Positions 19,330-44,591 of a DNA stretch of 64,000 nucleotides are shown piece after piece. The stretch is from Planococcus rifietoensis (GTDB lineage Bacteria; Bacillota; Bacilli; Bacillales_A; Planococcaceae): assembly GCF_001465795.2 (NCBI RefSeq), contig NZ_CP013659.2, positions 62,001 to 126,000 on the forward strand. The letters are read 5' to 3'. Position 1 is the stretch's first letter. Each line of letters opens with the position of its first letter. Below the pieces are notes generated by a model. That model was not told the origin of the DNA and made no database searches. It saw nothing but the letters and a program-made list of their open reading frames with translations. Made by a program: the position numbers and the translations under genes.

Positions 19330-19362
19330 TAAAAAATGGACTCTTCCGAAGAAGAGTCCATT
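19330..19362 (-). terminator. Terminator of the cold shock gene
   Basis: ATGGACTCTTC pairs with GAAGAGTCCAT; on the minus strand it is followed by six T. Confidence 0.88.
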
Positions 19363-19379
19363 GAAAGTTTAAGGGTTAA

Positions 19380-19580
19380 TTAAGCTTTTGATACGTTAGT
19401 AGCTTGAAGACCGCGTTGGCCTTGCTCGATGTCAAAAGTAACTTCTTGACCTTCGTCAAGAGTTTTGAATCCTTCGCTTTGGATAGCTGAGAAGTGTACG
19501 AATACGTCGTCTCCGCCTTCGCGCTCGATGAAGCCGAATCCTTTTTCTGAGTTAAACCATTTTACTTTACCTTGTTCCAT
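19380..19580 (-). CDS. csp: Cold shock protein (CspA/CspB family)
   Basis: 66 residues, a single cold shock domain with both RNA-binding motifs: KGFGFIERE (RNP1) and VFVHFSAI (RNP2), starting [17 protein letters not shown]. Such proteins bind single-stranded RNA and DNA and act as RNA chaperones. A longer open frame extends upstream, but ATG 19580 has GAGGAGGAA just ahead and gives the standard family length. About 200 bp of A/T-rich sequence before it could be the long 5' leader usual for csp genes. Confidence 0.95.
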
Positions 19581-19794
19581 GTGTGTTTCCTCCTCGTATG
19601 CTAATGCATACATTGTATTACTATCCTTGCTCAAATCCTTCAGATAAAATCTGATACTTAATGAAAAGCCATCGAACAAAAATAATTCTTCCTTAGAATA
19701 GCACGGTACTATTTGAAATGCAAGGATTAAGTTCGGTTGCTTCTTTTTCCCGCCATTCGTTATAGTTGAATGAAGAGGGATAGGAGGGGGATCG

Positions 19795-40188: not shown

Positions 40189-40303
40189 ATGAGAAGACAA
40201 AGAGGAAAGAATGTCCAAAAAACTGAAATAATGGGACGATTTTGGGAACTTATTCCACTTATGTTCGTAAGTATAGATAGTACAAGGGAAGGGGAGAAGG
40301 GCA

Positions 40304-40603
40304 ATGCCGAAATGCCAAAATTGCGGAACAACATGGACATGGGGACAGACCGTCTGCCGCCTGTTCACACTTGGGGAGAGCTTACCTTGCCCGTCTTGCA
40401 GGCAGGAGCAATTCATGACGATGGAATCGCGGAAAAAGACCAGTTTGTTTGTCTTTGCCGCTCCGCTCATCATGTTTATTTCGGTCGCTTTCGGTATTGA
40501 CCCGTTCGTTTCCCTCGCCCTGTTCCTGGCTTCCTTTTTAGTGATCATGGGCATCTACCCATTTTTTATCGAATTGACAGACGAGCGTGGGCCGATGTGG
40601 TGA
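40304..40603 (+). CDS. TIGR04104-type membrane protein with CxxC-x20-CxxC zinc ribbon
   Basis: 99 residues. CQNCGTTW at the start and CPSCRQEQF about 20 residues later form a four-cysteine metal site. Two membrane helices follow (about 45-62 and 66-86), and a short tail ends DERGPMW. This spacing is the hallmark of a small Bacillales family of unknown function. The ribosome site AAGGGGAGAAGG is strong. It lies alone upstream of the riboflavin leader. Confidence 0.75.
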   Translation: MPKCQNCGTTWTWGQTVCRLFTLGESLPCPSCRQEQFMTMESRKKTSLFVFAAPLIMFISVAFGIDPFVSLALFLASFLVIMGIYPFFIELTDERGPMW

Positions 40604-40669
40604 CTGGTGAAATCCGAGTTTCTTTATAGGGAATGAGTTGGCTGTGGGCGACAAATGAAGATTCTTTTC

Positions 40670-40698
40670 TGGACAGCCCCTGAAGCTTGCGCTAAACT
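40670..40698 (+). promoter_or_regulatory. Likely promoter of the riboflavin operon
   Basis: TGGACA (40670-40675), 17 bp, TAAACT (40693-40698). Transcription would start about 13 bases before the first FMN aptamer. No comparably good promoter is seen between the two aptamers. Confidence 0.6.
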
Positions 40699-40718
40699 TA
40701 CAGATAATCATCTATAGC

Positions 40719-40843
40719 GTTCTTCGGGGTCGGGTGAAATTCCCAATCGACGGTAACGGAGCAATCCGAAGCCCGTGAGCCTTTCGGGGCAGGATTTGGT
40801 GCAAGTCCAAAGCCGACAGTTAAAGTCTGGATGGGAGAAGAAC
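40719..40843 (+). promoter_or_regulatory. FMN riboswitch (RFN element), copy 1
   Basis: Complete RFN aptamer: closing stem GTTCTTC with GAAGAAC, GGGTGAAATTCCCAATCGAC, GCCCGTGAGC, GATTTGGTGCAAGTCCAAA, GCCGACAGT and GTCTGGATGGGAGAAG. FMN binding favours the terminator that follows at 40894. This copy has its own full expression platform, separate from copy 2. Confidence 0.95.
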
Positions 40844-40893
40844 CGTCAAGCAGCCTACTAGCAATCGCTTAGGTTTATTTGATATGAACTTTC

Positions 40894-40928
40894 AAGGCCC
40901 CTTTCTTTTTATGGAAGGGGCCTTTTTT
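40894..40928 (+). terminator. Terminator of FMN riboswitch copy 1
   Basis: AAGGCCCCTTTC pairs with GGAAGGGGCCTT and six T follow. Lies between the two aptamers. Confidence 0.9.
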
Positions 40929-40957
40929 GCATACTATGGATGATCAACTGAATAGTA

Positions 40958-41082
40958 TTCCTTCGGGGTCGGGTGAAATTCCCAATCGACGGTAACGAAG
41001 CAATTCGAAGCCCGTGAGCCTTTCGGGGCAGGATTTGGTGCAAGTCCAAAGCCGACAGTTAGAGTCTGGATGGGAGAAGGAA
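40958..41082 (+). promoter_or_regulatory. FMN riboswitch (RFN element), copy 2
   Basis: Second complete aptamer, nearly identical to copy 1 and 239 bases further on. Its closing stem is TTCCTTC with GAAGGAA, different in sequence from copy 1 but again paired. Inside, CGAA (40996-40999) with TTCG (41004-41007) replaces CGGA with TCCG of copy 1, a pair-preserving change. Followed by its own terminator and then ribD. Confidence 0.95.
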
Positions 41083-41132
41083 GAACACGGAAATTATAGA
41101 GTTTTCTATAGTTCTATTTCCTATTGTCTTCT

Positions 41133-41163
41133 AACCCATTGGCTAATCAATGGGTTTTTATTT
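41133..41163 (+). terminator. Terminator of FMN riboswitch copy 2
   Basis: AACCCATTG pairs with CAATGGGTT, followed by a T-rich run, 20 bp before the ribD ribosome site. Confidence 0.88.
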
Positions 41164-41184
41164 TGTTCTGAAAGGTGTGATCAA

Positions 41185-42267
41185 GTGGACGATCAGCAAA
41201 TCATGAAGCAAGCACTGGAGTTGGCGCGTTCAGCTGCCGGGCAGACGTCCCCCAACCCGCTCGTCGGATCGGTGATTATCAAAGATGGGCGCATCATCGG
41301 CATGGGCGCGCATCTAAAAGCAGGGCAAGCGCATGCAGAAATCCATGCGCTGAATATGGCAGACACTGAAGCGCGGGGCGCGGATTTATATGTGACGCTG
41401 GAGCCTTGCAGCCATCATGGCCGGACTGGGCCTTGCGCAGATGCGATTATAAAAGCCGGCATTCGCCGTGTCGTCGTCGCAGTGCTGGATCCGAATCCGC
41501 TCGTTTCGGGCCAGGGCATCCAAAAGCTTGAAAATGCCGGGGTTATTGTAGAGACCGGTGTCTGCGAGCAGGAAGCTGCGGAGTTGAACCGGATGTTCTT
41601 CACCTTTATCCGCAAAAACCGGCCGTTCGTCACATTGAAGCATGCCATCACGCTAGACGGCAAAATCGCTGTATACGGCGGCCGTTCAGAAAAGATTACG
41701 GGGCCTGAAGTGCAGCGCGATGTCCACAAACTGCGCTTGCTGCACGACGCCATCCTCGTCGGGGCCCAGACCATTGCACTCGATAACCCCCGTTTGACCA
41801 ATCGGTTTGCCGGTTCCCCGAAGCAGCCGATCCGCGTCATCTTGGATCGCCACCTGCGCATCCCAATAGAGAGCCACGTCATTCAAGTACCTGATGCCCC
41901 TACTTGGATTATCGTCGGATCACAGGCCGATATCGACAGCCGCGGAACATTTCCGGATCATGTCCGCATTCTCCAACTGGACACGCCGGATGTGGAAATC
42001 GCTGCCGCATTGGAATTGCTTGCTGAGCAAAAGGTGTTGTCTGTCCTTGTGGAAGGCGGCCAAAAAATCAATACCGCTTTCTTGAAAAGCGGGCAAGTGG
42101 ATGAAGTTGCTACGTATATTGCACCGATTATTCTCGGTGGCGAAGGAACCGTTTCCGTCTTCGGCGACCTGCAAACCAGTTCTGCGTCAAACGGCATTCG
42201 CTTGGAGACACAGAAGGTAGAACGCCTCGGAACGGATCTGAAGATCATCTCCACCTTAAAGGAGTGA
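41185..42267 (+). CDS. ribD: Bifunctional riboflavin biosynthesis deaminase/reductase RibD
   Basis: 360 residues. The N-terminal deaminase (1-145) has HAEIHAL and PCSHHGRTGPC, the zinc ligands; the C-terminal reductase (about 146-360) has TLKHAITLDGKIAVYGG and LVEGGQKINTAFL. It deaminates and then reduces the pyrimidine intermediate. The open frame runs up into riboswitch copy 2, but GTG 41185 with AAAGGTGTGA upstream gives the family length. First gene of ribD-ribE-ribBA-ribH. Confidence 0.95.
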   Translation: MDDQQIMKQALELARSAAGQTSPNPLVGSVIIKDGRIIGMGAHLKAGQAHAEIHALNMADTEARGADLYVTLEPCSHHGRTGPCADAIIKAGIRRVVVAVLDPNPLVSGQGIQKLENAGVIVETGVCEQEAAELNRMFFTFIRKNRPFVTLKHAITLDGKIAVYGGRSEKITGPEVQRDVHKLRLLHDAILVGAQTIALDNPRLTNRFAGSPKQPIRVILDRHLRIPIESHVIQVPDAPTWIIVGSQADIDSRGTFPDHVRILQLDTPDVEIAAALELLAEQKVLSVLVEGGQKINTAFLKSGQVDEVATYIAPIILGGEGTVSVFGDLQTSSASNGIRLETQKVERLGTDLKIISTLKE

Positions 42268-42272
42268 CACAA

Positions 42273-42908
42273 ATGTTTACAGGCATTATTGAAGAAAAGG
42301 GGCAACTCGCCGGCATCAAGCGCGGCGCATCCAGCATGGAAATGACGATCCGTGCAAATGTTGTCTTAGAAGAGACGAAAATCGGCGATAGCATTTCAGT
42401 CGAAGGGGTCTGTTTGACCGTGACTTCTTTATCAAGCGGCCGTTTCACGGTGGATGTCATGCCGGAAACCTTCCACGGCACGACCCTTTCTTCACTTAGT
42501 ACATCCAGTGCTGTCAATCTGGAACGTGCCATGGCGGCGAATGGCCGTTTCGGCGGACATCTTGTCGCGGGCCATATCGATGGGGTCGGCAAGATCTTGC
42601 GCAAGCGCCCACAGGAAAATGCCATGTATATCGATATAGCGGCGCCTCCTGAATTGCTTGCGCAGTCGATCGTCAAAGGGTCCGTCGCGATCGACGGCAT
42701 CAGCTTAACGATTTTCGAACTCAGCGAAAATCATTTGACCGTTTCGCTTATCCCGCATACGGCAGGAGAAACGACTTTGGGCAGCAAAAAAGTAGGCGAT
42801 TCGGTCAATCTTGAAACCGATATGTTCGGGAAGTACGTGCAGCGTTTTATGGAGCATGCGCCAAAACAACCGATGAACGCCGATTATTTGCGGCGCCACG
42901 GATTTTAA
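42273..42908 (+). CDS. ribE: Riboflavin synthase alpha subunit
   Basis: 211 residues, two lumazine-binding repeats: [10 protein letters not shown] with [22 protein letters not shown] in the first half and GHIDGVGKI with [22 protein letters not shown] in the second. It dismutates two lumazines into riboflavin and a pyrimidine. ATG 42273 lies 9 bp after GGAG and 5 bp after the ribD stop, so translation is probably coupled. Confidence 0.95.
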
Positions 42909-42920
42909 AGGAGCAAACCG

Positions 42921-44111
42921 ATGCTAAATACAATCGAAGAAGCAGTAAAGGATTTGCAGGCAGGAAAAGTCATTATTCTAGTAGATGACGAATCAAGGGA
43001 GAACGAAGGCGATTTTGTCTGTCTTGCTGAACATGCGACGCCTGAAAACATCAATTTCATGGCCACTCACGGCCGGGGGCTCATCTGCACGCCGGTCTCG
43101 CCCGATATCGCCTTGCGGTTGAAACTCGACCAAATGGTCAGCCATAACACTGACCATCATGAAACAGCATTTACCGTCAGCATCGATCATAAAGATGCCA
43201 AGACGGGCATCAGTGCATTCGAACGGTCGGACACCATTTTGCAAATGCTCGACACAAAAGCCGTGCCGCAGGATTTCAAACGGCCGGGGCATGTCTTTCC
43301 GCTTGTCGCAAAATCAGGCGGCGTTTTCCAGCGCCAAGGCCATACGGAAGCGTCAGTCGATTTGGCGCGTCTCAGCGGCAGCGAACCGGCAGCGGTCATT
43401 TGTGAAATCATGAACATTGACGGCTCGATGTCGCGCATGCCGGAACTGGAAAAGCTGGCGGATGAGTTCAATTTGAAACTTATTACCATCGAGGATCTCT
43501 ATGCGTATCGCGCGGAGAAAGACCCGATCCTCAAGCGGGAATCGAGTGTCCACATGCCGACCGACTTCGGTGAATTCCGCATGGTTGGCTACTCCAACCG
43601 GTTAGATACAGAAGAGCATGTCGCCATCGTCAAAGGAAATCCGGAATCGGTGGAAGCGCCGATTGTGCGCATTCACTCAGAATGCTTGACCGGCGATATT
43701 TTCCACTCGCGCCGCTGCGATTGCGGGGCGCAACTTACGAAATCGCTTGAATTGATCGAACAGGCAGGGACGGGCATCGTCCTTTACATGCGCCAGGAAG
43801 GTCGCGGCATCGGCTTGTTGAACAAACTGAAAGCGTATGAGCTGCAAGAGCAGGGCTTGGATACCGTCGAAGCCAATGAACAGCTAGGCTTCCCGGCGGA
43901 AATGCGCGATTATACATTATGCGCTTTGATGCTGAAAGATCTGGGCGTGTCGCGCGTTAGGCTGTTGACGAACAATCCAGCCAAGACAGATGCGCTTATC
44001 GAATACGGCATCGAAGTGGAAGAACGGCTCGCGCTCGTCATCCCGCCGACTGAAGACAACACACAATACATGAAAACGAAAAAACAACGGATGCATCATC
44101 TAATCGACTAA
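42921..44111 (+). CDS. ribBA: Bifunctional DHBP synthase/GTP cyclohydrolase II
   Basis: 396 residues. The first half (1-200) is dihydroxybutanone phosphate synthase, with [18 protein letters not shown] and [14 protein letters not shown]. The second half is GTP cyclohydrolase II, with [21 protein letters not shown] holding the zinc Cys residues and [13 protein letters not shown]. Together they make both precursors of the pathway. AAAGGAG precedes the ATG, 12 bp after ribE. Confidence 0.97.
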
Positions 44112-44123
44112 GGAGTGTTTACA

Positions 44124-44591
44124 ATGGAAACAGTTTACGAAGCAAATTTGATTGGCTCGGATTTAAAAATAGCAATCGTTACAGGGAGATTCAATGACTT
44201 TATCACGTCTCGCCTGCTGGACGGTGCCGTCGACGGCTTGGTGCGCCACGGCGTCAATAAGGAAAACATCGATACTGCCTGGGTACCGGGAGCATTTGAA
44301 TTGCCGCTGGTCGCGAAAAAAATGGCGGAAACGAAAAAATACGACGCCGTCATCGCACTTGGCACCGTGATTCGCGGTTCGACGACGCATTACGATTATG
44401 TCTGCAGCGAAGCGGCAAAAGGCATTGCGCAAGCCGGCATGTCGACAGGCGTTCCGGTCATTTTCGGTGTCTTGACGACGGAAACGATCGAGCAGGCGAT
44501 TGAACGCGCTGGCACGAAAGCCGGAAACAAAGGCTACGAAGCGGCGGTTTCTGCAGTTGAAATGGGCAATTTGATGAAAGCATTCGACTGA
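44124..44591 (+). CDS. ribH: 6,7-dimethyl-8-ribityllumazine synthase
   Basis: 155 residues. [39 protein letters not shown] with the catalytic His, and [24 protein letters not shown] are the standard motifs. It joins the two precursors into lumazine, the substrate of RibE. ATG 44124 is chosen over GTG 44115 because AGGAG lies at 44110-44114. Last gene of the operon. Confidence 0.96.

Follow-up and report, generated by a model that had tools for sequence, protein, structure and literature searches.

Tandem FMN riboswitches upstream of the riboflavin operon in Planococcus and related genera

The ribDEAHT leader of Bacillus subtilis contains a single FMN riboswitch, as opposed to the two that are present in the stretch of Planococcus rifietoensis DNA analyzed here (64,000 nucleotides, hereafter the window). 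According to the available text of PMC12288461, the B. subtilis leader resembles the present one in having an FMN aptamer, termination before ribD and a pause in the leader, the last of these being putative in Planococcus. Tandem FMN riboswitches are also on record: in the available portions of the two relevant sources, 31 doublets and 4 triplets are filed as pseudo-cooperative, with multiple expression platforms (PMC9481103), and doublets (87%) and triplets (13%) are described as overrepresented upstream of ribE, ribB and ribH among Bacillota (PMC12452182). As far as these portions go, the known doublets and triplets have the same architecture as the Planococcus pair, namely complete aptamers in a row with multiple platforms. 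Because tandem and triple FMN switches before rib genes have been published, novelty of the architecture, which an earlier note on this DNA implied, is not supported, and the list of ligands that the note gave for known tandem arrangements (glycine, TPP, SAM/B12) omitted FMN, already described in the available text of both sources (PMC9481103, PMC12452182).

Tandem riboswitches for other ligands offer two further points of comparison. The glycine riboswitch also consists of two same-class aptamers in a row, but these serve one expression platform and bind cooperatively (PMC9481103, available text), whereas the Planococcus pair has two platforms; no platform shared in the manner of glycine was found in the 13 tandem Planococcus leaders, all of which carry a terminator between the aptamers. 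Tandem TPP riboswitches, described in the same portion of PMC9481103, are serial independent attenuators that respond to one ligand, as we propose for the pair studied here, with a different ligand and aptamer. The less ordinary detail of the Planococcus pair is the combination of nearly identical aptamers with two unlike expression platforms. Neither such unlike platforms nor the spread over 10 genera reported below was seen in the available text of PMC9481103 or PMC12452182, and the string "Planococc-" is absent from the main texts of both. Among open-licence papers in PubMed Central, Planococcus together with riboswitch and riboflavin retrieved only a Bacillus pumilus genome paper, and the phrase 'tandem FMN' had no match.

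In the window, both aptamers match the RF00050 model from end to end (model positions 1-138), with scores well above the gathering score of 66.2. Copy 1 lies at 40716-40846 on the + strand (107.7 bits, E 4.4e-24), starting at 40716 and not at 40719 as previously assigned, and copy 2 at 40955-41085 on the same strand (110.7 bits, E 6.7e-25). The copies are 97% identical across 119 nt, and their starts are 239 nt apart, in agreement with the earlier description of two full RFN aptamers at this distance. Both the scores and the rib-gene context place them in the FMN riboswitch aptamer class (RF00050), and the covariance-model search that had been proposed as a check recovered the pair in related genomes as well as in the window. 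Open reading frames between the copies reach at most 46 aa, that is, no gene intervenes. An inverted repeat, ATACTAT...ATAGTAT, noticed by eye in the alignment, adjoins P1 just 5' of copy 2 (40930-40965) and occurs as a G-U tolerant variant in other species.

Each aptamer is followed by its own intrinsic terminator on the + strand, as first described for this locus. Terminator 1 (40894-40928; 40894-40924 in the scan) is GC-rich and has 12 pairs, an energy of about -21 kcal/mol and a T tail; terminator 2 (41133-41164; 41133-41156 in the scan) has a T-rich tail and an energy of about -11.5 kcal/mol, with 10 pairs counted by the scan. The region 40300-41400 contains four terminator-like sites compared to a shuffle mean of 1.4. 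A terminator after each copy is present in all 13 tandem Planococcus leaders, with energies of -18 to -22.4 kcal/mol for terminator 1 in 12 of them (-12.9 in L052) and -11.5 to -13.8 kcal/mol for terminator 2 in all 13; a single compensatory change (T-A to C-G) is present in the terminator 2 stem of G014 and G019. The linkers contain additional + strand hairpins, one between aptamer 1 and terminator 1 (40845-40883), predicted in the copy 1 terminator folds of the four leaders folded, and one between aptamer 2 and terminator 2 (41089-41121, GGAAAT...ATTTCC), seen in the alignment and by folding.

As had been stated, ribD follows both switches (41185-42267, + strand, 360 aa), with a GTG start. 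Three further + strand reading frames come next, which, by the usual make-up of the rib operon, we take to be ribE (42273-42908, riboflavin synthase alpha chain, 211 aa), ribBA (42921-44111, 396 aa) and ribH (44124-44591, lumazine synthase, 155 aa).

Upstream of copy 1, a sigma-70-like promoter, TGGACA-17-TAAACT (40670-40698, + strand, 9 of 12 consensus matches), is the sole promoter-like site that passed the scan of 40300-41400. Because one such site is what shuffled sequences yield (mean 0.9), the support for this promoter comes from conservation and not from consensus: TGGACA is kept in 13 of 13 tandem Planococcus leaders, and the second hexamer is TAAACT in 11 of these, TAGACT in one and TAAAAT in one. 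The consensus scan found no good promoter between the copies, where the best sites have 8 of 12 matches. Of the two parts of the earlier claim, the promoter before copy 1 is supported by conservation, and the lack of one as good between the copies holds by consensus. These observations bear on the possibility that copy 2 is a working switch with a hidden promoter of its own, copy 1 ending a separate short RNA. Terminator 1 is indeed strong, and it is part of the fold predicted for the free copy 1 RNA at full length; nevertheless, the only site between the copies that is common to all 13 leaders, TTGATA..TTTCTT, overlaps the hairpin of terminator 1, the other sites are no better than 8 of 12, and the upstream TGGACA is invariant, so that we regard this reading as very unlikely.

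The pair was resolved in 13 of 46 Planococcus genomes as two full-length FMN matches upstream of rib genes with a spacing of about 239 nt; contigs with the tandem pattern include those of P. citreus, P. maritimus and P. maitriensis, among others. Each of these 13 genomes has one further FMN match elsewhere; in the genome of the window, this third switch lies 5' of a ribU-like gene. A 14th tandem case is G035, whose leader opens with copy 1, breaks off into 192 N and resumes in the last part of copy 2, followed by terminator 2, a gap inside the pair as would be expected of an unresolved repeat. An assembly artefact or strain oddity was rejected as the source of the tandem arrangement given the 13 resolved genomes, three of them assembled as single contigs (G000, G015 and G019); the pair is thus not confined to the present assembly, and a tandem pattern is found in 64 of 261 genomes of the family.

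A single leader match is present in 31 of the 46 Planococcus genomes (26 above the cut-off and 5 as weak split matches), G003 has no FMN match other than the third switch, and G035 retains a weak fragment. The 31 single leaders precede ribE, as confirmed for 27 of them (25 by the start motif and two more by ORFs), and the gene upstream of the single leader is unlike that of the tandem clade in all seven cases inspected. The aptamers of the single leaders (L061-L065 and L067-L092; 31 ribE leaders) have an enlarged arm between CCGTGACCC and GGTGGAGCTGG, P4 by our own reading, with a length of 161 to 425 nt compared to 136 nt for the window copies under the same rule. The insert in the arm of G023 belongs to a dispersed repeat; a 118-nt part of the insert has 14 matches in G023 itself, 23 in G007 and 11 in the genome of the window. 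L081 resembles a deletion scar. The single aptamer thus seems, from these sequences, to have tolerated repeats inside one arm.

The RibD proteins of the tandem clade are only about 45-50% identical to those of other Planococcus genomes, and RibD of the other type can be encoded away from the rib leader (for example, in G020), G005 having both types. In G019 (L054), most of the ribD gene downstream of the tandem leader has been lost, only a 36-residue piece being matched before an intact-looking ribE, and both riboswitches are complete despite this loss. Exchange of the rib operon may have occurred within Planococcus.

Across the family, two spacing patterns matched 24 and 42 of 261 genomes, giving 64 distinct genomes in 10 of 19 genera, and the reversed-pattern control had no matches in the same 261 genomes. 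The number 64 is probably an underestimate, since the patterns miss variants and other spacings, as they did the triplet of G068. A second rule, which required two or more aptamers, was passed by 63 of the 64 pattern matches; the 64 leaders analyzed below exclude L133 (G077), which failed this aptamer rule, and include L108 (G068), a triplet by Rfam. Doublets were detected by Rfam in Ureibacillus, Solibacillus, Lysinibacillus, Psychrobacillus and one further relative, and triplets in Kurthia sibirica as well as in another genus, represented by three genomes. The first gene after these 64 leaders is ribD in 16 cases, a ribD remnant followed by ribE in one (G019), ribE in 47 and ribU in none. 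Conversely, the 20 ribD loci of the family that were searched with Rfam have one FMN match in 14 cases, two in one, three in three and none in two. A terminator was detected downstream of the first copy in 58 of 64 leaders, of the middle copy in 5 of 5 and of the last copy in 55 of 64; the 6 first and 9 last copies at which the terminator rule found none could reflect either absence or a miss of the rule. In an earlier search with a tandem pattern, 13 of the 15 stretches retrieved were confirmed by Rfam as tandem FMN cases. The other two, the Bacteroidota contigs L037 and L038, had nothing above the gathering score and were taken as chance matches.

In the alignment of the 13 Planococcus leaders, only 3 of 131 columns of aptamer 1 and 7 of 131 columns of aptamer 2 are variable. 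The linkers vary more (29 of 108 and 21 of 99 columns), as do the upstream region (71 of 130) and early ribD (30 of 65). Selection therefore appears to have maintained both copies, the aptamers being nearly frozen relative to the surrounding sequence; like the aptamers, the terminators and the promoter-like site, this conservation is read from the sequence. Could one of the copies be a non-functional duplicate, neutral or in decay? In favour of such a duplicate, the aptamer tree of several genera has the copies clustered by genus rather than by position, such that the duplications look fairly recent on the scale of the family. In Planococcus, however, both copies have barely changed while the linkers and the coding sequence diverged (RibD by up to about 11% from that of the window in 12 of the 13 tandem genomes, G019 being set aside), and copy 1 and copy 2 have kept their separate identities, all of which makes a functionless copy very improbable.

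The origin of the copies was addressed with a tree built from 36 aptamers at 18 loci; good support is limited to 8 of its 30 inner branches. In Kurthia, Lysinibacillus, Ureibacillus and Planococcus, the copies of each genus fall together, with copy 1 and copy 2 remaining distinct within Planococcus; those of Solibacillus, Psychrobacillus and G068 show no clear grouping, and those of G050 and G085 group partly by position. One ancient duplication for the whole family is not favoured by this tree, and the clustering by genus fits repeated duplication or homogenisation, conversion being expected to look alike. The tip of P3 in copy 2 occurs in two forms that are a paired double change apart, one of them being the form of copy 1. 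On a ribD tree of 12 genomes, from which G019 was left off because its ribD is mostly gone, the two forms imply 3 changes, 2 of which are forced by supported branches; 83 of 500 label shuffles were equal or better, and these sequences thus give only a hint of gene conversion between the copies. The distribution suggests that riboflavin synthesis in this family is commonly under serial FMN control, which probably arose repeatedly.

The best explanation of this arrangement, and one that we hold with considerable confidence, is that the two copies are independent FMN-controlled attenuators in series, an organization of the 'pseudo-cooperative' type. By analogy with the known family, from which FMN binding, termination and the dose response would carry over to this leader, a single transcript from the promoter 5' of copy 1 would meet two complete FMN riboswitches one after the other. 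FMN bound to the nascent aptamer would hold the P1 helix and the pocket and so block the antiterminator, and the terminator just downstream would then stop RNA polymerase; ribD-ribE-ribBA-ribH would be reached only by transcripts that escape both stops. That the message must pass two FMN-controlled stops was the central proposal of the earlier note, and it is probably the right reading of the leader: each copy has its terminator in 13 of 13 leaders, and those of the window form in folding when the aptamer pairs are enforced.

The note further proposed that two stops in series should give a tighter or steeper shutdown of flavin synthesis. Read-through fractions multiply, and therefore deeper repression and a somewhat steeper response would be expected. 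In a model of two independent switches, run for three settings of basal (10-20%) and maximal (80-95%) termination, maximal repression was 20- to 324-fold with two switches compared to 4.5- to 18-fold with one, of which it is the square, while the 10-90% FMN range narrowed from 81-fold to 45-59-fold and the half-point fell to about half. According to this model, doubling would gain much more in depth than in slope, the 'tighter' part of the proposal being predicted and the 'steeper' part to a modest extent only.

By prediction, each aptamer has an expression platform of its own, consisting of a terminator and alternative folds. When the Rfam aptamer pairs are enforced on the window sequence, each terminator forms; when the free transcript is cut before the 3' arm of the terminator, an antiterminator forms instead. 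In copy 1, the predicted partner of the terminator arm is the 5' strand of the aptamer (GGGGUC and the L2 stretch UGAAA; -15.9 kcal/mol in the window), with candidate antiterminator parts at 40726-40739 (GGGGTCGGGTGAAA, J1/2 to L2) and, by folding, 40890-40901 (TTTCAAGGCCCC). In copy 2, the predicted partner is the 3' strand (AUGGGAGAAG with CUUCUaaCCCAU; -14.0 kcal/mol), with candidate parts at 41070-41079 (ATGGGAGAAG) and, again by folding, 41128-41139 (CTTCTAACCCAT), all four parts being on the + strand. Shuffled arms gave equally low energies in 35 of 500 cases for copy 1 and 41 of 500 for copy 2 in the window, and in 35-85 and 18-41 of 500, respectively, over 7 of the 13 leaders. The duplexes beat shuffles only moderately and are therefore suggestive, not proven, and the same strength attaches to the predicted difference in strand between copies 1 and 2. 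Two of the 13 second copies (L049 and L059) favour the 5' strand under one scoring. Among the FMN leaders of the family, the first copies prefer the 5' strand in 26 and the 3' strand in 24 cases (n=58), and the last copies in 15 and 39 cases, respectively (n=55).

The complete copy 2 RNA, like that of copy 1, was predicted to fold with its terminator, in this case in 3 of the 4 species folded. Because the terminator is present in the folds of complete free RNA, control would have to be kinetic, and a leader that is OFF by default at equilibrium is possible under these predictions. Enforcing the Rfam pairs costs 14-18 kcal/mol relative to the free fold in an energy model that includes neither the ligand nor tertiary contacts.

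Kinetic control brings the linkers into focus. According to the available text of PMC12288461, a NusG-dependent pause at TTNTTT in the B. subtilis ribD leader gives FMN longer to bind, and N81 and T82 are the NusG residues named for reading this motif. These pro-pausing residues are present in the NusG of the window's genome (VVRNTPGVTGF, N81 T82). A motif that contains TTNTTT, GGTTTATTT, lies in linker 1 of the window (40872-40880, + strand) and is conserved in the first linkers of Planococcus: GGTTTATTT or GGTTTCTTT occurs in linker 1 of 13 and in linker 2 of none of the 13 leaders. In other genera, 39 of the 56 upstream linkers and 35 of the 51 last ones carry such a motif, with mononucleotide-shuffle means below 1, the longer motif having been picked post hoc from the alignments. 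For TTNTTT itself, with shuffles that were roughly dinucleotide-preserving, the Planococcus counts are 13 of 13 first linkers compared to a shuffle mean of 6.8 (maximum 11) and 0 of 13 second linkers compared to 2.5, and those in other genera 38 of 50 first and middle linkers compared to 33.5 and 38 of 42 last linkers compared to 25.8. TTNTTT is a weak statistical signal. By analogy with B. subtilis, we hypothesize a NusG pause in the linker of copy 1.

These differences between the platforms invite a refinement of the serial scheme in which the copies are unequal and provide two FMN thresholds rather than one steeper response: copy 1 would be a kinetic gate with a NusG-dependent pause, a very strong terminator and a 5'-strand antiterminator, and copy 2 a differently tuned gate with a weaker terminator and a 3'-strand antiterminator. 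The greater strength of terminator 1 across the Planococcus leaders, the confinement of the longer motif to their first linkers, the difference in the preferred antiterminator strand, and the NusG residues together with the pause known for the B. subtilis ribD leader (PMC12288461, available text) are all in line with this refinement. Nonetheless, TTNTTT is not far above shuffles and its longer version was chosen after the fact, the 13 leaders are close relatives that represent few independent events, the gapped relative G035 has TTATTT in the linker of copy 2, and other genera often carry the motif at both copies; we therefore consider two thresholds possible but not probable. A bolder version, which we find rather doubtful, holds that near-identical aptamers, perhaps homogenised by gene conversion, feed two different decision mechanisms, copy 1 using the 5' (pocket-forming) strand after a NusG pause and copy 2 the 3' strand without such a pause, so that one ligand would be read first by a kinetic gate and then by a gate of different tuning, and that the state of copy 1 may bias copy 2. 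Since the antiterminator of copy 1 would not need the 3' strand, the freed strand could pair with the terminator 2 arm and thereby cause such a bias. Whichever form the two serial attenuators take, the Planococcus pair is a natural test bed for the question whether doubling of a riboswitch buys depth, slope or two thresholds.

Elsewhere in the window, a match to the cspA thermoregulator (RF01766) is present at 19332-19737 on the - strand, with 85 bits compared to a gathering score of 78.
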